A model generated the notes under the pieces. That model worked only from the letters and a program-made list of their open reading frames with translations. It ran no database searches and was not told the DNA's origin. From positions 3,446,936 through 3,510,935 of the forward strand of contig NC_007796.1 of NCBI RefSeq assembly GCF_000013445.1: a DNA stretch of 64,000 nt, written 5' to 3'. The stretch comes from Methanospirillum hungatei JF-1 (GTDB lineage Archaea > Halobacteriota > Methanomicrobia > Methanomicrobiales > Methanospirillaceae). Shown in pieces: positions 32,226 to 62,139 of this stretch (the stretch's first letter is position 1; each line of letters starts with the position of its first letter). The position numbers and the translations under genes were made by a program.

Positions 32226-32872
32226 GACTGGTTACAACAATCCTGCTCTCTGCTGCAGCCTGGATCTCGCTCCCCGGTGCCGTCCTCTCCGTCCTCTGGT
32301 GGCTGATATGCGGAAAAGCACGGACCTCAATCCGGTCTATCCGATCCTTTTTCATCATCCTCATCGTGCCGGGATTGATGGGACTTGCTGCAGTATGGTC
32401 TGGTGAAGACGGTCTCTCATATGTGGTCAGGATCATGGCGGTGCTCATCATCGCGTCATGGATGTATGCCGAGCGGTATCCGGGAGAACTTCTTGATGTG
32501 GGAGTCTGGTTTCTCGGAACAAAAACCGGATTTGATCTCGGGCTTATCGGGGAGCTGAGTATGTCTTCCCTTGATACCCTTGCACGGGAGACAGACCGGA
32601 TTTCTGTCGCCCTTCGGCAGAAAGGAACACCCCTTTCTCTGCGTATGATCCCGGCTGTCTTTTCAGGCATACTCATCAGGCAGCTGAATCTGGCTCATGA
32701 ACGGGCAATTCTTCTGACACTCCGGGGATATACCAGGGGAGGCATGCATTGCCCGTCCTTTTCCTCTCCGGGTATAGACCGGATAAACGGGGCCTTTTCA
32801 TGCACCATTTTCCTTTTATCCCTGATTGCAGGTGACTTTTTTAATATAGCCGGATCAACCTTTATTGTTTGA
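32207..32872 (+). CDS. ECF transporter transmembrane subunit (EcfT/BioN-like)
   Basis: The 221-residue protein has four or five predicted membrane helices (about 10-30, 42-66, 75-93, 190-210), and the conserved basic motif of EcfT is present in a cytoplasmic loop (ALRQKGTPLS region). EcfT couples ATPases to the S-component. Its place at the end of bioY-ATPase-ATPase indicates a biotin-specific module. A minor stretch before the stop is again hydrophobic. Confidence 0.82.
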   Translation: MQDPRIRLVTTILLSAAAWISLPGAVLSVLWWLICGKARTSIRSIRSFFIILIVPGLMGLAAVWSGEDGLSYVVRIMAVLIIASWMYAERYPGELLDVGVWFLGTKTGFDLGLIGELSMSSLDTLARETDRISVALRQKGTPLSLRMIPAVFSGILIRQLNLAHERAILLTLRGYTRGGMHCPSFSSPGIDRINGAFSCTIFLLSLIAGDFFNIAGSTFIV

Positions 32873-32903
32873 ACCGCACCCTGGCGGTATAATAGGTGTC
32901 CAT

Positions 32904-34637
32904 ATGAGTTCTGACCGACAAAAACGGCTTTATATAACAGATACAACACTTCGGGATGCGCACCAGTCACTCATCGCAACCAGAATGCGAACTGAGGACA
33001 TGATCCCGCTGACCCGCTCAATTGATAAGGCCGGTTTCTTCTCGGTTGAAGCATGGGGAGGGGCCACGTTTGACAGCTGTATCAGGTTTTTGAACGAAGA
33101 CCCCTGGGAACGTCTGCAAAAACTCAAGGCAGAACTGAAACACACGCCAATACAGATGCTTCTGCGTGGGCAGAACCTGGTCGGATACCGGCACTATTCT
33201 GATGATGTGGTGGATCGGTTTGTTGACCTCGCCCATAAAAACGGGGTAGATATCTTCCGGGTCTTTGATGCCCTGAATGATATCAGGAACATGGAGCGCC
33301 CGATGACCAGGGTAAAGGAGACTGGTGCCCACCTTCAGGGAACCATATCATATACAACCAGTCCGGTTCACTCAGTCAGGGGATTTGTGGATCTCGCCCG
33401 TGAACTCTATGCCCGTGACTGCGACTCCATCTGTATCAAGGATATGGCCGGACTTATCATGCCGGCTGTTGCAAAAGAACTCATCATGGGCATCAAGGAT
33501 GAGATGGATGTGCTCGTTAACCTCCACAGCCATTGTACGAGCGGTATTGCGCCGATGTCATATAGCGCTGCCATCGATGCAGGGGTGGATATTCTCGATA
33601 CCGCCATGTCACCCTTTGCCCTTGGAACCAGCCAGCCACCTACCGAGAGTGTTGTTGCATCAGTTCAGGGAACAGCCAGGGATACCGGTATCAATCTCAT
33701 GGATCTCAGAGTGATCAGGAACGAGTGCCTGAAGATTCGGAATAAATATGAGGGACTTTTCACTCCGATTGCCGAGCGGGTGGACAGCGATGTCCTCATC
33801 TACCAGCTGCCTGGTGGAATGATCACAAATCTTGTCTCCCAGCTGCAGGACCAGGATGCGCTCGATAAAATGGAAGCAGTGCTTGACGAGATCCCAAGAG
33901 TCAGACAAGACCTCGGATATCCCCCCCTGGTCACCCCGACCTCGCAGATTGTCGGAACCCAGGCAGTATTCAATGTTCTGACCGGAGGGAGGTACAAGAC
34001 GATCTCAAACGAGGTCAAGGACTATGTAAAAGGGCAGTATGGAAGATCTCCCGGTCCGATATCAGATGAGATCCGAACGATCATCATCGGGGATGAGGAG
34101 GTCATCACCGTTCGGCCTGCAGACCTGCTTGCACCAATGTACGAGAAGATGAAGGCAGAAGCAACTGGTGCAGGTCTGATAAAAAAGGAAGAAGATGTCC
34201 TCACCTATATCCTCTATCCTGCCATCGCGCCCTCATTCCTGAAAGGAGAGCGGAAAGCAGAGCCGATTCCCTCCGCTGTCCAAAAGAAGGAGACCAGTCT
34301 TTCAATGCCTTCATCCATGCAGGTCGAAGTTGACGGGGAGACATTCACCGTCAGGATTCTCGCCATTGGGGATCAGCCGGTTGAAGGAAAACAGAAAGCA
34401 GCCGAACCACCAAAATCGGACATTCCAGGCGGGGTCAAGAGTAATATGCAGGGAATGGTTCTGAAGATCATGGTCGGCAGGGGTGACAAAGTAAAGGCAG
34501 GTGATACTCTGGTTGTTCTTGAAGCCATGAAGATGGAAAACCCCATCTCAAGTCCACGGGACGGAGTGGTAAAAGAGATCTTTGTCGATGCCGGAGACAC
34601 CGTCCTTGCCGGTGATGTGCTCCTGGTGGTTGAATGA
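32904..34637 (+). CDS. pycB: Pyruvate carboxylase subunit B (carboxyltransferase and biotin carrier)
   Basis: The 577-residue protein has the carboxyltransferase TIM-barrel start [12 protein letters not shown], the metal-binding NLHSHCTSG, and a C-terminal biotinyl domain with EAMKMENP, where the biotin Lys is about K543. A Pro-rich linker joins them. It moves CO2 from carboxybiotin to pyruvate to give oxaloacetate, the feed for the incomplete citrate pathway of methanogens. I start it at 32904 with GGTG before it; an ATG 39 bp upstream lies within the EcfT gene. The order biotin transporter-PycB-PycA with birA just before makes a coherent biotin unit. Confidence 0.93.
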
Positions 34638-36112
34638 AATATTTCGAGAAGATACTGATCGCAAACCGTGGTGAAATCTCCATCCGTGTCATGCGTGCCT
34701 GCCGTGAGTTAGGCATTGATACGGTTGCTATCTACTCCGAAGCAGACAAGGACTCCCTTTTTGTCCATTATGCAGACGAAGCCTTTCCGGTCGGGCCGGC
34801 ACCTCCTTCAAAATCATACCTGAACAAGGAACGGATCATATCAGTTGCAAAGAAGGCAGGCGCCGAAGCGATCCACCCGGGCTATGGATTTCTTGCAGAG
34901 AATGCGGAGTTTGCCAAACTCTGTACCGAAGAGGGCATCACCTTCATCGGTCCGAAATCCAAAACCATCGCCGCGATGGGATCAAAGATCCGGTCAAAGC
35001 AGACCATGAAAGGTGCCGGTGTCCCAGTTCTTCCAGGAACTGACGGAGGGATTGATGATCTTGATATGGCTGCAACGGTTGCTGACTCCATCGGATACCC
35101 GGTTATCGTCAAGGCAAGCGCGGGTGGCGGCGGTATCGGGATGCAGATCGTTCATGATCCCTCTGAAATAGAATCCGCCATCGAAGGTGCCATGCGGATC
35201 GCAGAGTCGGCATTCGGTGACCGGACAGTATTCATCGAGAAGTATCTTCAGAAACCACGGCATGTTGAAGTGCAGGTCTTCTGTGATGAACATGATAACC
35301 GCATCCATATGTTTGAACGGGAGTGCTCCATCCAGCGCCGACACCAGAAGCTCATTGAGGAGGCACCCTGTCCGGTCATGACCCCTGAGTTGCGTGAGAG
35401 GATGACCAATTCTGCGCTCCGGGTTGCCGAGGCGGTGGATTACGTCAATGCCGGCACAGTTGAGTTCCTCTATGACAATGGCGAGTATTACTTCATGGAG
35501 ATGAACACCCGACTGCAGGTGGAGCATACCATCACCGAACTGGTCACCGGGATCGATATTGTGAAGGAACAGATCATTGTCGCGTCAGGAGATCCCATCG
35601 AATACGGCCAGGAGGACATTACTCTGCGCGGTCATGCAATCGAATGCCGAATCAATGCAGAGGATCCCATGAACAATTTCGCTGCAGATCCCGGCAAGAT
35701 CACCAGGTACCGGTCACCAGGTGGTCCGGGGATCAGGCTGGATTCTGGTATTCATGCCGGGTATACCATCCCGCCATTCTATGACTCAATGATCTCCAAG
35801 CTCTGCGCGTGGGGAATGAGCAGGGAGTATGCCATTGCGCGGATGAGACGCGCAATTTACGAGTATGTCATCCTGGGAGTTAAGACCACTTTGCCCCTGC
35901 ACCATGCCATCATTCACAACCCAGAGTTCATCGCTGGCAACACGCACACCCACTTCCTGCAGGAGGAACATATCAGCCGGACCCTTAAGCGGTACATTCA
36001 GGAAGAGGAGACCAGGATGACCCAGCTGGCAACGCCCCTTCGTGCAGACAAAAAAGTTGCCGCGATTGCTGCCGGACTTGTGGCGGTTATCGAACAGAAC
36101 AAGCAGAACTGA
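34634..36112 (+). CDS. pycA: Pyruvate carboxylase subunit A (biotin carboxylase)
   Basis: The 492-residue protein is a full ATP-grasp biotin carboxylase. Its N-terminus is [20 protein letters not shown], the glycine-rich ATP loop is [11 protein letters not shown], and the catalytic Glu/Asn region reads [13 protein letters not shown], with RINAEDP further on. It carboxylates the biotin of PycB with ATP and bicarbonate. It overlaps pycB by 4 bp. The length and residues are those of the archaeal family, and no defect is seen. Confidence 0.94.
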
Positions 36113-40225: not shown

Positions 40226-40320
40226 GATCTGACTGTTTCTCCTGAAAAGACTTGAGGAATATGGAGAGAAAATAACGATATATTTATTAGTGCAAACGGC
40301 ATTCTTATAATGCACTTTGT

Positions 40321-40410
40321 GCTGTTGTGGCCTAGCTGGTTAGGGCGCCAGACTCATAAGTTCAAGACTGAGATATCTGGAGGTCGCGGGTTCGGATCCC
40401 GTCAACAGCA
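40321..40410 (+). tRNA. tRNA-Met (CAT) with 16-nt intron
   Basis: The acceptor stem is GCTGTTG with CAACAGC at 40403-40409, and the discriminator base is A. The D arm is GCCT...GGGC, the anticodon stem CCAGA (40348-40352) pairs with TCTGG (40376-40380), and the T arm GCGGG...CCCGT follows. The loop reads C-T-CAT-A-A, giving anticodon CAT. A 16-nt insert GTTCAAGACTGAGATA at about 40360-40375 lies just 3' of the anticodon loop, the canonical archaeal intron site. The elongator type is favoured, because tRNA-Met with an intron is usual there. CAT could also be tRNA-Ile2. Confidence 0.9.
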
Positions 40411-40442
40411 TTAGAACAACTAGTTTGGATCTCTTACATCCC

Positions 40443-40473: not shown

Positions 40474-41320
40474 ATGCCCCTGACTCCTTTCGCAAGCGAC
40501 AATGATCGCTTTCACCTCATGAAAAGTGACTATCCGGACCGTTCACTTTCACGCGCAATTGAGAGCGGCACCGTCACTGAGTAGGACAAAAACTCATTCT
40601 CGAATTCATCGCTGAACGGAAGAACACCAAGGGAATCAAATGCAAGCGGGTTCTCAAAATCATCTCAAGCCTGATCACCTCCAGGCGATTCATCGGACCG
40701 TATTTCCAGGACACATACTTCGATATCTATCAGGGGATTGATGGGATCGTGAACGGTGGTCCGGTAAAGGGCAGGCAATTCACCCAGAACACCAGGGTGG
40801 ACCTTATCATGATTCTGAAATCCTTCGTCCTCTGGATGATCGTTAATAAGTACCTCCCCAATGTACCGGAAAAGAAGAACCGGGCGATCAAAGTCCCCCG
40901 TATAGCCCCTACCAAGGAAGCATCTGATCTCCTCTCGGTTACAGAGATCGAAGCTCTGATGAAGGCCTGCACCTTCAACCGGAACCGGGCGATGATCATG
41001 ATGCTCTATGAAGGGGCATTTCGTGCCGGTGAGATCGGGGAGATGAGATGGAAGGATCTCAAGATTGACGGGACCGGTCTTGTGGTGCGTGTGACCTTCA
41101 AGACCGAAAAGCACCGGTATGTCCGGCTTGTTATGGCACGGGAACATCTCATAAATGGAAATCAGAATATCCCGGCGAGATCGTTGATGATGGATTTGTC
41201 TTCGTATCTGGCAAGATGAAACCGCTTTCTCATGCCGCAATCACCAGACTTATCCAGCGACTGGTAAAGAGGGCTCAGATCAACAAGCACATTACTCCCC
41301 GGATCGTTTCGAAGATTTGA
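40474..41320 (+). pseudogene. Tyrosine recombinase (integrase) remnant beside tRNA-Met
   Basis: The reading frames join into a broken integrase. The first piece from ATG at 40474 encodes PFASDNDRFHLMKSDYPDRS and stops at TAG near 40583. A second frame (LILEFIAERKNTKG, then RVDLIMILKSFVLWMIVNKY) continues to KKNRAIKVPRIAPTKEAS. A third piece after about 41160 reads FVFVSGKMKPLSHAAITRLI and ends at 41320. The catalytic Arg region (FRAGEIGEMRW) is present, but the H-x-x-R and Tyr regions are missing. There are at least two frameshifts plus a truncation. Placement just 3' of a tRNA gene suggests an old integration of a mobile element. Confidence 0.8.
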
Positions 41321-42380: not shown

Positions 42381-42390
42381 CCTTAAATAT
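42381..42390 (+). promoter_or_regulatory. Promoter of first repeat protein gene
   Basis: The TATA-like box CCTTAAATAT lies about 31 bp upstream of the ATG at 42421, with TGAGG as ribosome site next to the start. The same box and flanks recur before the second repeat gene (43210-43219), so the two genes probably share regulation. Confidence 0.6.
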
Positions 42391-42420
42391 CTCCCTATCC
42401 AACGAAAACTGAGGTTTAAT

Positions 42421-43116
42421 ATGGCATCCATCGGTTCTGGCGTAATCTTAATGGGTATCGTTGTAGTGATTGGGTCACTGTTCTGTTTCGCATATGCTGA
42501 TGATGAGATCTACCCTGGTGGAATGGTAATCACCAAATTTAACAGTTCTGAAATAGGGACAATGCAGGCTGCTGAAAAGTTCAACTCATCTGAAATTGGA
42601 ACTATGCAGAACTCTCAAAAGTTCAACTCGTCTGAAATAGGGACAATGCAGAACTCTCAAAAGTTCAACTCATCTGAAATTGGAACTATGCAGAACTCTC
42701 AAAAGTTCAACTCATCTGAAATTGGAACCATGCAGAACTCTCAAAAGTTCAACTCGTCTGAAATTGGAACCATGCAGAACTCTCAAAAGTTCAACTCATC
42801 TGAAATTGGAACTATGCAGAACTCAAAAAAGTTCAACTCATCTGAAATTGGAACCATGCAGAACTCTCAAAAGTTCAACTCGTCTGAAATTGGAACCATG
42901 CAGAACTCAAAAAAGTTCAACTCATCTGAAATTGGAACTATGCAGAACTCAAAAAAGTTCAACTCATCTGAAATTGGAACCATGCAGAACTCTCAAAAGT
43001 TCAACTCGTCTGAAATTGGAACTATGCAGGACGCTACCAAATTTAACAGTTCCATGATCGGTACTATGCAAAACACCGTCTCAAATATTCCTCTCCCGCC
43101 AGGAGTGACAGTTTAA
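42421..43116 (+). CDS. Secreted repeat protein, 13 x 14 residues
   Basis: The 231-residue protein starts with a hydrophobic signal peptide (about 1-26, ending FCFAYADD), then YPGGMVIT. From residue 39, thirteen copies of a 14-residue unit follow, K-F-N-S-S-E-I-G-T-M-Q-N-S-(Q/K), the first and last two slightly changed. A tail PLPPGVTV ends it. Every unit has an N-S-S sequon, a potential N-glycosylation site. The Ser/Asn/Gln-rich regular repeat could form a beta-solenoid or amyloid-like fibre. No function is known to me. The nearby paralogue at 43251 has a similar beginning and end but a different repeat. Confidence 0.85.
   Translation: MASIGSGVILMGIVVVIGSLFCFAYADDEIYPGGMVITKFNSSEIGTMQAAEKFNSSEIGTMQNSQKFNSSEIGTMQNSQKFNSSEIGTMQNSQKFNSSEIGTMQNSQKFNSSEIGTMQNSQKFNSSEIGTMQNSKKFNSSEIGTMQNSQKFNSSEIGTMQNSKKFNSSEIGTMQNSKKFNSSEIGTMQNSQKFNSSEIGTMQDATKFNSSMIGTMQNTVSNIPLPPGVTV
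42535..43080 (+). repeat. 42-bp tandem coding repeat, 13 copies
   Basis: Thirteen 42-bp units in the same frame code for the 14-residue repeat. Units 2-11 are nearly identical in DNA, differing mostly in one codon (TCA/TCG Ser, ATA/ATT Ile) and in CAA/AAA at the last residue. The first and last two units differ more. Such near-identity across the array, with changes at the ends, is what unequal crossing-over or slippage produces. Confidence 0.9.
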
Positions 43117-43140
43117 ATTTATTCCAATTTTTTTTATTCA
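43117..43140 (+). terminator. Oligo-T terminator after first repeat gene
   Basis: An eight-T run in AATTTTTTTTATT lies about 15 bp beyond the stop of the repeat gene, fitting archaeal oligo-T termination. The second repeat gene starts over 100 bp later with its own TATA box. Confidence 0.5.
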
Positions 43141-43209
43141 TTTTAGGGTAACTAAATCATTTTATTTATTATCGCATTTCATCTCTCATTTTCTTAAAAG
43201 AAAGATTAT

Positions 43210-43219
43210 CCTTAAATAT
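43210..43219 (+). promoter_or_regulatory. Promoter of second repeat protein gene
   Basis: CCTTAAATAT again lies about 32 bp before an ATG, with TGAGG as ribosome site. It nearly duplicates the box and spacing of the first repeat gene (42381-42390), flanks included, and points to common origin and control. Confidence 0.6.
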
Positions 43220-43250
43220 CTCTATCACAAACGATTTCTGAGGATATATT

Positions 43251-43736
43251 ATGGCAACCCTCCGATCAGGTATACTTGCTTTGATAGTATGCGCAATAGT
43301 TGCTTCTTTGCTCAGTTTTGCATACGCAGATGATGTGATCTACCCAGGTGGGATGATCATTACAAAATTTAACAGTTCTGAGATTGGATCAATGCATCCA
43401 CCTGAAAAGTTCAACAGCTCAGAGATTGCATCAATGCACACACCTGAAAAGTTCAACAGCTCAGAGATTGCATCAATGCATCCACCTGAAAAGTTCAACA
43501 GCTCAGAGATTGCATCAATGCATCCACCTGAAAAGTTCAACAGCTCAGAGATCGCATCAATGCATCCACCTGAAAAGTTCAACAGCTCAGAGATTGCATC
43601 AATGCATCCACCAGAAAAGTTCAACAGCTCAGAGATCGCATCAATGCACACACCTGAAAAGTTCAACAGCTCAGAGATCGCATCAATGCAGAAACCAAAT
43701 TCAACTGTCCCCCTTCCACCAGGGGTTTCTATCTAA
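43251..43736 (+). CDS. Secreted repeat protein, 8 x 14 residues, paralogue
   Basis: The 161-residue protein has a signal peptide (about 1-26), the same YPGGMIIT segment, then eight units K-F-N-S-S-E-I-A-S-M-H-P-P-E (residues 39-149; the last ends early as M-Q-K-P) and a tail PLPPGVSI. The core KFNSSEI is shared with the neighbour, but each unit ends S-M-H-(P/T)-P-E. The Met-His pair in seven of eight repeats could bind metal. Every unit has the N-S-S sequon. The head and tail match the first paralogue, so the genes arose by duplication followed by repeat replacement. Confidence 0.85.
   Translation: MATLRSGILALIVCAIVASLLSFAYADDVIYPGGMIITKFNSSEIGSMHPPEKFNSSEIASMHTPEKFNSSEIASMHPPEKFNSSEIASMHPPEKFNSSEIASMHPPEKFNSSEIASMHPPEKFNSSEIASMHTPEKFNSSEIASMQKPNSTVPLPPGVSI
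43365..43697 (+). repeat. 42-bp tandem coding repeat, 8 copies
   Basis: Eight in-frame units of 42 bp encode the SMHPPE-type repeat, the last three bases shorter. Differences are few (ATT/ATC, CCT/CCA and TCC/ACA), indicating recent homogenisation separate from that of the neighbouring gene. Confidence 0.9.
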
Positions 43737-50850: not shown

Positions 50851-50909
50851 TCATGATGAGAAATGAGTGCCAGTATGGGATACCATTCTATAAAACGGTC
50901 TTGCTGTAC

Positions 50910-51031
<122 letters not shown>

Positions 51032-51104
51032 AAACTGAACACCGGTATGACCCGGTTAAGCCTCGTGCTTTTAAATCAGTTACAATAGAATTTTCTCGTT
51101 GAAC

Positions 51105-51226
<122 letters not shown>

Positions 51227-51228
51227 AT

Positions 51229-51299
51229 AGCCAAACTCCGGGTTCGAACCGGAATTGAGTTGACCTGCTGTCAACCGCGTGACTGCTCAGCCACTTGGC
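51229..51299 (-). tRNA. tRNA-Cys-like gene with odd features, operon 1
   Basis: This 71-nt gene folds with acceptor GCCAAGT against GTTTGGC, anticodon stem GTTGA against TCAAC, and a T arm TCCGG-TTCGAAC-CCGGA. The anticodon loop is CAGCAGG, giving GCA (Cys), but position 33, universally U, is A. The D stem is imperfect and only one base joins it to the acceptor stem. It lies between 23S and 5S, where Methanomicrobia often keep tRNA-Cys. It may be a degraded copy or a tRNA of an unusual type. Confidence 0.7.
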
Positions 51300-51379
51300 C
51301 TGGCTTGGATGTGTGGAAGATGCGAGATATAATTACACCAGCGTTTAAGGATTTCGTCTGGGTTTGAGAAACATGAATT

Positions 51380-54285
<2,906 letters not shown>

Positions 54286-54448
54286 AGAACGTCTTTTTGT
54301 AGTTTCTTCAAACCCATGTAACGTCCAGAAACGCCTAGTGATTTTCTCTACGCATCTCCTCTACACAGCGTATCATCGCCCCGATTTCACGGGGTCTCAA
54401 GCCCTTCCCCGGTTCTGTCGCCAGACCGGGTGCATCGAAAAATACCAG

Positions 54449-54521
54449 TGGACCCGTGGGGATTTGAACCCCAGGCCTCGGCGTTGCAAACGCCGCGCTC
54501 TTCCAGCTGAGCTACGAGCCC
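54449..54521 (-). tRNA. tRNA-Ala (TGC), 16S-23S spacer, operon 1
   Basis: This 73-nt gene has acceptor GGGCTCG pairing with CGGGTCC, D arm GCTC...GAGC, anticodon stem CGGCG/CGCCG with loop TTTGCAA (anticodon TGC), and T arm TGGGG-TTCAAAT-CCCCA. Spacer tRNA-Ala is the archaeal norm. No intron. Confidence 0.96.
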
Positions 54522-54557
54522 TCTGATTCCATTCCGGAACACTGATAACTCTATGGT

Positions 54558-54580
54558 CTGTCTCCATCTGCCACAACTTT
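54558..54580 (-). other. 16S processing stem, 3' half, operon 1
   Basis: The 23 nt at 54558-54580 (CTGTCTCCATCTGCCACAAC in its first 20) are complementary to the 16S leader at 56085-56107 with three mismatches, forming a long helix around 16S. Such helices with bulges are cut by the archaeal splicing endonuclease. The other operon has the same pair at 60642-60664 and 62169-62191. Confidence 0.7.
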
Positions 54581-54589
54581 CATTTCGTT

Positions 54590-56055
<1,466 letters not shown>

Positions 56056-56084
56056 TTCTAAATTTCTCGCACACTGTATCTCTT

Positions 56085-56107
56085 AAAGTATTGGCAGATG
56101 CAGACAG
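56085..56107 (-). other. 16S processing stem, 5' half, operon 1
   Basis: The leader partner of 54558-54580. It begins about 30 nt upstream of 16S and pairs over 23 bp with three mismatches. Confidence 0.7.
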
Positions 56108-56207
56108 ATATCCACATTACCAGTATTCCTATGTCAGAACCGATACTGCACCACAGTGCATTCGTCGGGTCTCCATTAAAACGGCCTCTTACGTTGCTCG
56201 CTGAAGG

Positions 56208-56216
56208 TTATATACT
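56208..56216 (-). promoter_or_regulatory. rRNA operon 1 promoter (TATA box)
   Basis: Read leftward, CGAAAGTATATAACC contains BRE-like CGAAA and TATA box AGTATATAA, about 155 bp from 16S. It is followed by a leader conserved with operon 2 up to about position 56290, beyond which the two copies diverge. Confidence 0.65.
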
Positions 56217-56487
56217 TTCGTATTGCCCTTCCCGAACAATCATTCCCCGGCCGCCGGCTCCTGATGTTTCAGGAAGCGTGTGGGATACAATAGTTGATCG
56301 AATTCACATATATAGATAACGAGGTTCTGAAGGAAAATTTCTGTCACTTCATCACATTCACTCTATCTGCGTTACATCGGTCAATATTTTCCAACTCGGT
56401 TTTATGAAGATATTTTTTCGGAATTATACTTCCGATGCAGGAGCCGGGAGGATCTCCGGAGGTCTCTATTCTCTCTAGAGCGCAGAT

Positions 56488-57102
56488 TCAGATCATACCT
56501 GATCCGGTCGCATGCTGAATCGCCGCATACGTGGCTGGATTGGGCTCAATATATACCTCGCCAAAAAACGTATCCTGGGAAATCTCCAGGTATCCTTCAT
56601 GCATAAGGAAGAGCAGCGGGATAAATACATGAACGACCGGCCATTTCAGACGGTTTGCAATCTCCGATAAAGTGACTTTCCTGCCCTGAGACACACAGTC
56701 CACACAGCAGGTTAATACTTCCATGGCATTCTCCTGGTACGCTTCCTCATGGGCGAGTGAGACGACTTCTTCAGTATACACGAGCCCATCATAACTCCAG
56801 ACTTCGCGTTGTCGCCTTCGCTCTTCTTTTTCTGCATTCCGAAGAAGGTTGATGAGATCGTAAAGGGTAATCGGCTGTTTGCACATACTCTTTCGTTCCA
56901 GCCGGCGCGTGATCTCATGTTCAAGCAGCTGGACTGGATTGTGAATCCGTGACAGAACATCATCGTCCGGACTCTCAGGGATATCCCCCCCGTCATCTTC
57001 TTCCTCAAATCCCCAGGAGCGATCTTTCAGATAATCGGATTTGATCCGCAGAAGAGTTGCGGCATACAGAAGAGTTCTCGCTGAAAGGCGGAGATCAAGC
57101 AT
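56488..57102 (-). CDS. scpA: ScpA-like segregation and condensation protein, N-terminally shortened
   Basis: The 204-residue protein matches the middle and C-terminal parts of ScpA. LDLRLSARTLLYAATLLRIK corresponds to the helix that follows the SMC-binding N-domain, and VTLSEIANRLKWPVVHVFIP is the C-terminal winged helix that contacts the other condensin arm. Codons upstream (VSDYKYLSS) still resemble ScpA and extend to the 5S gene of operon 2, but no start codon occurs there, so ATG at 57102 is the only choice. A TATAAATA stretch lies 20 bp upstream. The usual N-terminal domain of about 40-60 residues is absent, apparently lost where the rRNA operon joins. Confidence 0.75.
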   Translation of the reverse strand: MLDLRLSARTLLYAATLLRIKSDYLKDRSWGFEEEDDGGDIPESPDDDVLSRIHNPVQLLEHEITRRLERKSMCKQPITLYDLINLLRNAEKEERRRQREVWSYDGLVYTEEVVSLAHEEAYQENAMEVLTCCVDCVSQGRKVTLSEIANRLKWPVVHVFIPLLFLMHEGYLEISQDTFFGEVYIEPNPATYAAIQHATGSGMI

Positions 57103-57188
57103 AAACCGCGATGATAAATATTTATAATCAGATACAGAATAGAAACAGTAATTCAGAATGATTCGTACAAAAGAGTCTCTCGTTGAAC

Positions 57189-57310
<122 letters not shown>

Positions 57311-57312
57311 AG

Positions 57313-57383
57313 AGCCAAATTCCGGGTTCGAACCGGAATGGAGTTGACCTGTTGTCAACCGCGTGACTGCTCAGCCACTTGGC
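57313..57383 (-). tRNA. tRNA-Cys-like gene, anticodon ACA, operon 2
   Basis: The gene is 71 nt with the same frame as the operon 1 copy, but the anticodon loop is CAACAGG, giving ACA in place of GCA, and U33 is again A. Acceptor pairing is better here (T7 with A). ACA would read Val, but A34 is very rare in archaea, so this is probably a mutated, non-functional copy of tRNA-Cys. Confidence 0.65.
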
Positions 57384-57463
57384 CTGGCTTGGATGTGTGG
57401 AAGATGCGAGAGATAATTTCACCAGCGTTTAAGGATTTCGTCTGGGTTTGAGAAACATGAATT

Positions 57464-60369
<2,906 letters not shown>

Positions 60370-60532
60370 AGAACGTCTTTTTGTAGTTTCTTCAAACCCA
60401 TGTAACGTCCAGAAACGCCTAGTGATTTTCTCTACGCATCTCCTCTACACAGCGTATCATCGCCCCGATTTCACGGGGTCTCAAGCCCTTCCCCGGTTCT
60501 GTCGCCAGACCGGGTGCATCGAAAAATACCAG

Positions 60533-60605
60533 TGGACCCGTGGGGATTTGAACCCCAGGCCTCGGCGTTGCAAACGCCGCGCTCTTCCAGCTGAGCTACG
60601 AGCCC
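60533..60605 (-). tRNA. tRNA-Ala (TGC), 16S-23S spacer, operon 2
   Basis: This 73-nt gene is the same as the operon 1 copy at 54449-54521, with anticodon TGC. Stems and loops are identical. Confidence 0.96.
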
Positions 60606-60673
60606 TCTGATTCCATTCCGGAACACTGATAACTCTATGGTCTGTCTCCATCTGCCACAACTTTCATTTCGTT

Positions 60674-62139
<1,466 letters not shown>

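Follow-up and report, generated by a model that had tools for sequence, protein, structure and literature searches.

Two neighbouring genes of Methanospirillum hungatei JF-1 encode proteins built from a 14-residue unit in which an N-x-S sequon recurs, and the question arises what kind of family they represent and what such regularly spaced sequons could serve in the cells that carry them. The genes were analysed within a window of 64,000 nucleotides, which corresponds to bases 3446936-3510935 of the single-contig JF-1 genome (3,544,738 bp).

Organization of the two repeat genes

Gene A (ORF 42421-43116, 231 aa) contains 13 units and gene B (ORF 43251-43736, 161 aa) contains eight, with a spacing of 14 residues kept throughout both genes without error (Table 1). 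The mature proteins share the start DD-x-IYPGGM(V/I)IT and an 11-residue tail including PLPPGV, and FNSSEIGTMQNSQK and FNSSEIASMHPPEK are examples of their peptides. An earlier note on this DNA had described paired ORFs with a signal peptide, YPGGM(V/I)IT, 13 or 8 copies of a 14-mer and PLPPGV, and this architecture was recovered in full. It had also assigned KFNSSEI to every unit; N-S-S is indeed present in 21 of the 21 units, but the final unit of A reads KFNSSMI. In gene B a ninth sequon, NST, stands immediately ahead of PLPPGV, and the four copies of this paralogue all retain the extra sequon, either as NST or as NSS (4/4). The 42-bp arrays of A and B are the top tandem repeats of the window, with TRF scores of 789 and 563 against 112 for the runner-up. 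Further ORFs called in the 42-bp array (one at 43340-43666 of the minus strand, two others in plus frames) were discarded as reading-frame shadows of the period, that is, by-products. If the ORFs at 32865-36112 are the pyruvate carboxylase genes, Mhun_3189-3190 (PMC4704411), as we assume, counting onward from them gives an estimate of about Mhun_3194-3196 for the locus tags of the pair.

Table 1. Positions of the features of genes A and B in the window
Feature	Position	Strand	Remark
Gene A, TATA-box-like TTAAATA	42383..42389	+	38 nt 5' of ATG
Gene A, Shine-Dalgarno-like GAGG	42411..42414	+	
Gene A, signal peptide, 26 aa, ...CFAYA/DD (cleavage at the slash)	42421..42498	+	hydrophobic stretch and A-x-A site, by inspection
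Gene A, mature N-terminal segment DDEIYPGGMVIT	42499..42534	+	DD-x-[IL]-[YW]P in all orthologues with such an end
Gene A, array, 13 x 14 aa (42 bp), one N-S-S sequon per unit	42535..43080	+	
Gene A, C-terminal tail SNIPLPPGVTV and stop	43081..43116	+	tail compared with sheath proteins
Gene B, TATA-box-like TTAAATA, own promoter	43212..43218	+	
Gene B, Shine-Dalgarno-like GAGG	43240..43243	+	
Gene B, signal peptide, 26 aa, ...SFAYA/DD (cleavage at the slash)	43251..43328	+	from the sequence
Gene B, mature N-terminal segment DDVIYPGGMIIT	43329..43364	+	
Gene B, array, 8 x 14 aa, one N-S-S sequon per unit	43365..43700	+	
Gene B, tail STVPLPPGVSI and stop	43701..43736	+	extra NST starts on the array's last residue

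Elsewhere in the window, a tRNA gene at 40320-40411, to which ARAGORN assigned no anticodon, looks like an intron-containing tRNA-Met (CAT), and just past it lies a fragment of the phage integrase family (40749-41219), which an integrated element may have left behind. Two tandem rRNA operons with equal scores occupy 50909-62139, with two 5S genes in the operon closer to the repeat genes.

Distribution of the family

The earlier note proposed a search for the repeat among archaea. Nine of the 12 Methanospirillum genomes carry the family, which was not found in any of the 220 other genomes of the class; the three Methanospirillum genomes without it are 64-75% complete. Orthologues of both A and B occur in G001, G008, and G009, and family fragments lie at the ends of contigs in G010 and G005. 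The sister-clade species G002, G003, and G007 carry a single gene with units KFNSSDVKSMQPSE or near to it, present in 10, 2-3, and 8 copies, respectively. Orthologues in different species have related ends and unequal unit numbers, which over the whole family amount to 3 (G003, the third incomplete), 8, 10, 11, 13, and 20. All copies with an intact start have a signal peptide by inspection, A and B included, and the two proteins are predicted to be secreted, in agreement with the earlier note.

The search of genome contigs matched one M. hungatei MAG, and no family member was found in the viral contigs searched. Sequence searches against Pfam, NCBIfam, and PDB gave no relative of the repeat proteins: the weak matches obtained (e.g., viral heptad repeats) were sub-threshold or composition-driven, and an off-genus match in G012 proved, on reading the sequence, to be an unrelated low-complexity repeat. 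The literature search for the unit peptide or the estimated tags Mhun_3193-3198 found no paper, nor did it find proteomic or transcript evidence for genes A and B, and the texts of the sheath-preparation papers do not report the repeat proteins (PMC6242892, PMC11641113). The family is consequently regarded as new, as had been supposed, in the sense that no description turned up in the literature searched.

Selection and turnover of the arrays

Differences between units inside the arrays are mostly silent: pN/pS is 0.17 in A and 0.08 in B, and the remaining arrays of the family span 0.00-0.32 (0.00 in G007), with most values falling between 0.07 and 0.32. TTAAATA lies 38-40 nt and GAGG 10-12 nt upstream of the ATG in each of the six genes measured in JF-1, G001, and G009 (6/6 for both motifs), and GAGG also precedes the sister-clade repeat genes. 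Judged from their sequences, the arrays are real genes under purifying selection, in which the block of promoter and ribosome site is kept. Homogenization of each array, likewise claimed in the earlier note, is borne out by gene-specific Ser codons, which are TCA/TCG-TCT in A of JF-1 versus AGC-TCT in A of G001, and by edge units that diverge from the inner ones. Since the interior is homogenized and the edge units differ, unequal exchange probably takes place within the arrays.

Conservation of the unit and its sequon

Over 38 distinct unit types, F2, N3, and S5 are the sole unvarying positions, thus the invariant core consists of Phe and an N-x-S sequon. Position 4, the X of the sequon, is S, T, or G, position 7 is I/V, position 9 is S/T, and position 10 is M/T, with the greatest variation at positions 11-14. 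Pro is absent from the sequon X and from the position that follows the sequon, yet it is common elsewhere in the unit. Protein A contains 13 sequons compared with 6.4 expected from shuffles of the same residues, and a sister-clade orthologue contains 10 compared with 2.6. Two traits expected of a tandem-repeat N-glycoprotein, namely a selected sequon in each unit (N3 and S5 invariant; pN/pS 0.00-0.32) and a signal peptide together with an oligosaccharyltransferase in the genome, were found, the JF-1 genome having five STT3/AglB genes. The S-layer protein of M. hungatei gives glycoprotein staining (PMC11641113). The idea that the repeat-unit Asn carries a glycan is strengthened and appears plausible on these grounds.

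A eukaryotic system of comparable design is provided by the fish-egg hyosophorins/polysialoglycoproteins, which are secreted and have, as here, short near-identical units, a glycan site per unit, and homogenized arrays. They are not homologous to the repeat proteins, and for them glycosylation is proven.

Link to the mspA locus

With an SH-type (sheath protein) query from the G002 locus, MspA of JF-1 was retrieved, a protein of 377 aa with Cys at position 271, the position published for it (PMC6242892). The gene order is RecJ-PUA-NAC-TrmI-mspA-aglB-SH2 in JF-1, G001, G009, and G010, and a contig of G008 covers mspA-aglB-SH2. In G003 and G007 the order is RecJ-PUA-NAC-TrmI-mspA-SH2-repeat gene, and G002 (NAC-TrmI-mspA-SH2-repeat gene) has the same order from NAC onward; STT3/AglB, PUA, and DHH (RecJ-like) were confirmed by Pfam, and NAC and TrmI were named by reading the sequences. 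Because this order is shared, the single repeat gene in the sister clade occupies a locus orthologous to that of JF-1 mspA, which encodes the major sheath protein. The pair of JF-1 and its near relatives is not near any sheath gene: it is located after a TRM5/TYW2-like methyltransferase and, where the contigs reach, is followed by a TPR lipoprotein and a family-2 glycosyltransferase (GT2). Given about 20 SH genes per genome, we estimate the chance adjacency of a repeat and a sheath gene at about 1%; the linkage to mspA is a single evolutionary event of one clade.

A second and weaker connection concerns the C-terminus. The tail G-[VILFM]-[TSKRQ]-[VILFY] was found in 8 of 10 repeat proteins, 20 of 22 SH proteins, and 4 of 204 other ORFs (one of these four itself an SH relative), counts that cover the ORFs of selected loci and refer to a resemblance spotted by eye after the fact. 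The sister-clade repeat proteins are without the sheath-like tail. MspA (Mhun_2271, WP_011449234.1; PMC6242892, PMC10593813), of the SH family, is an exported component of the Methanospirillum envelope, as the repeat proteins are predicted to be, and it shares with the repeat family the locus in the sister clade and the similar tail. MspA differs from the repeat family in its length of 377 aa, in an amyloid-like fold, and in having neither a sequon nor a short-repeat array. The two families are not homologous in sequence: the SH query returned no repeat genes from the genomes, nor did the reverse search return SH genes. Since MspA has no N-x-S/T sequon, the sheath is not necessarily a substrate of the AglB encoded next to it.

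Some features of the mspA locus are recorded here in their own right. Upstream of mspA lies a 5' leader, TGCTGAGAGTATCAGCATGAAATGTAGGAGG (G000:C1:2538042-2538072; L046/L072), with a perfect 6-bp inverted repeat. Eight mspA loci of Methanospirillum, those of the sister clade among them, have this leader without a difference, and it occurs nowhere else in the JF-1 genome; it possibly forms an mRNA-stabilizing or regulatory hairpin. The STT3/AglB gene between mspA and the SH paralogue (L046:8222-10759; L064-L067) occurs in five Methanospirillum genomes and is far less conserved than its neighbours (35-55% to JF-1). The encoded MspA (L046:10904-12034) has two Cys, at 257 and 271; PMC6242892 gives a single Cys, at 271.

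Fold of the repeat chain and alternative explanations

According to the earlier note, the periodicity and composition pointed to a beta-solenoid or functional amyloid. On such a reading each unit would form one rung and the proteins would be fibrous subunits of the sheath or plug. AlphaFold2 (AF2), run on A with three closely related sequences, indeed drew a beta-solenoid with 12-residue strands per unit (pLDDT 83.5, pTM 0.70), unit positions 3, 5, 7, and 9 are broadly better conserved than 4, 6, and 8, as in the alternation of a strand, and the genus possesses an amyloid-like sheath (PMC6242892, PMC10593813). But the five models of A disagree, spanning pLDDT values from 83.5 to 32.8, and paralogue B, which has the same core, was modelled alone at pLDDT 56 with short helices and no strands. 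For perfect repeats, AF2 has been documented to produce beta-solenoids that are confident yet unrealistic (PMC11795689). Foldseek comparison of the solenoid with PDB gave a best E of 0.063, none at or below 0.001, and no TM-score above 0.33 among the matches listed. The arrangement of the MspA/SH family, two six-stranded amyloid-like sheets with a cap domain, was seen in neither AF2 model, both of which are unreliable. The moments computed from conservation and from hydropathy have their maximum close to 140 degrees, a value that favours neither strand nor helix. The units of B contain Pro-Pro, and the orthologue with only two to three units in G003 argues against a cooperative solenoid. Stacked Lys/Glu ladders with a sequon on each rung would be unfavourable, and a solenoid would conflict with a glycan per unit, because stacking at about 4.8 A leaves little room. 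Repeat amyloids of the CsgA/FapC type resemble A and B in being exported N/S/Q-rich repeats, but their units are longer (19-48 aa; PMC6242892) than the 14 residues found here, and a nucleator/export operon of their type is absent at A and B, which have their own promoters and the methyltransferase, TPR lipoprotein, and GT2 as neighbours. The solenoid or amyloid is thus not backed by trustworthy evidence, and we consider it unlikely.

In charge-hydropathy analysis, four of four repeat proteins fell on the disordered side, if barely, and MspA on the ordered side. Because of the unreliable AF2 models, the lack of a structure match, this composition, and the two to three units of G003, the chain was taken to be probably flexible, at low certainty.

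A surface adhesin, or a decoy for syntrophic partners or viruses, with a repeat number varying as in surface antigens, would agree with predicted export, with the differences in unit number between species, with the syntrophic life of the genus (PMC4704411), and with the lipoprotein and glycosyltransferase genes downstream of the pair in the JF-1 clade. The core of the unit is conserved rather than diversified, an adhesin domain is lacking, and the searched viral contigs held no relatives, all of which speak against this role and make it quite improbable in our judgement.

Alternatively, each unit could be a short helix followed by a turn, the whole forming a flexible rod or a binder of several partners. 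F-N-S-S-E-I fits a hydrophobic staple with a capping box (F as N', N as N-cap, E/D as N3, I/V as N4), the pattern F-N-x-x-[E/D]-[I/V] is shared by 27 of the 38 unit types, FNSSDV among them, and in the single-sequence model of B helices begin at SSEIAS in several units. This model has a pLDDT of only about 55, the box is broken by Met at position 6 in 11 of 38 unit types, and an N-cap Asn bearing a glycan would forfeit its capping role; such helix-capped segments seem more improbable still. Finally, a multicopy precursor whose units are cleaved apart to yield a secreted signal or an antimicrobial peptide, comparable to tandem pheromone precursors, is very improbable: it could account for the signal peptide, the near-identical units, the separation of conserved cores by a variable linker (positions 11-14 and 1), and the Lys ahead of each core in most copies, but G009 and G010 have Ala or Ser in place of Lys at position 1, so there is no conserved cleavage site, the end segments are conserved, and no processing or receptor gene adjoins all copies.

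Proposed role in the cell envelope

The best explanation, which we advance as a tentative one, is that the repeat proteins are exported, carry glycans on Asn, and serve as a largely unfolded spacer of the sheath or envelope. A and B would be exported by the Sec route to the cell envelope, where, after removal of the signal peptide, AglB may glycosylate the Asn of every 14-residue unit. The glycosylated chain would then be an extended comb acting as a hydrated, flexible spacer or filler, and the number of its glycans (2-3 to 20) would equal the number of units as set by recombination within the array. The ends DD-x-IYPGG and PLPPGV-T-V could fasten the chain in the envelope, for which the sheath, the gap between sheath and S-layer, or the plug would be the likeliest places. 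An additive spacer is preferred to a fold of fixed minimum size since the unit numbers range from 2-3 to 20. The ordered solenoid predicted by AlphaFold2 counts against the spacer, as do the distance of the JF-1 pair from any sheath gene and the silence of the sheath-preparation texts about it.

A narrower version of the spacer, in which the proteins are accessory glycoproteins of the sheath or plug, with an N-glycan comb tuned by repeat number and missed by standard proteomics, seems doubtful to us. In most copies a trypsin site precedes every Phe, leaving one sequon per peptide; as such tryptic peptides would be missed if glycosylated, the absence of the proteins from sheath lists may be technical. 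In M. hungatei GP1, phenol-soluble polypeptides are reported to account for about 20% of the sheath and to give it rigidity (Southam & Beveridge, 1992, as cited in PMC6242892). As far as that account goes, no gene has been assigned to them, and a small, exported, genus-specific family would fit; their identity with the repeat proteins would be a guess. The family is a candidate for these rigidity-conferring polypeptides, nothing more.

Significance

Methanospirillum builds its sheath and plugs as protein structures of exceptional resistance, and few of their parts have been identified beyond the SH proteins and some S-layer paralogues. In a 2024 survey, genomic context yielded no candidate for an assembly or plug protein (PMC11576556). 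The repeat family offers a concrete candidate for the sheath or plug, being genus-restricted, predicted to be exported, and, in one clade, placed within the mspA locus. If it is true that all units are glycosylated, these proteins would represent a natural, length-tunable archaeal N-glycan comb, useful for the study of AglB.
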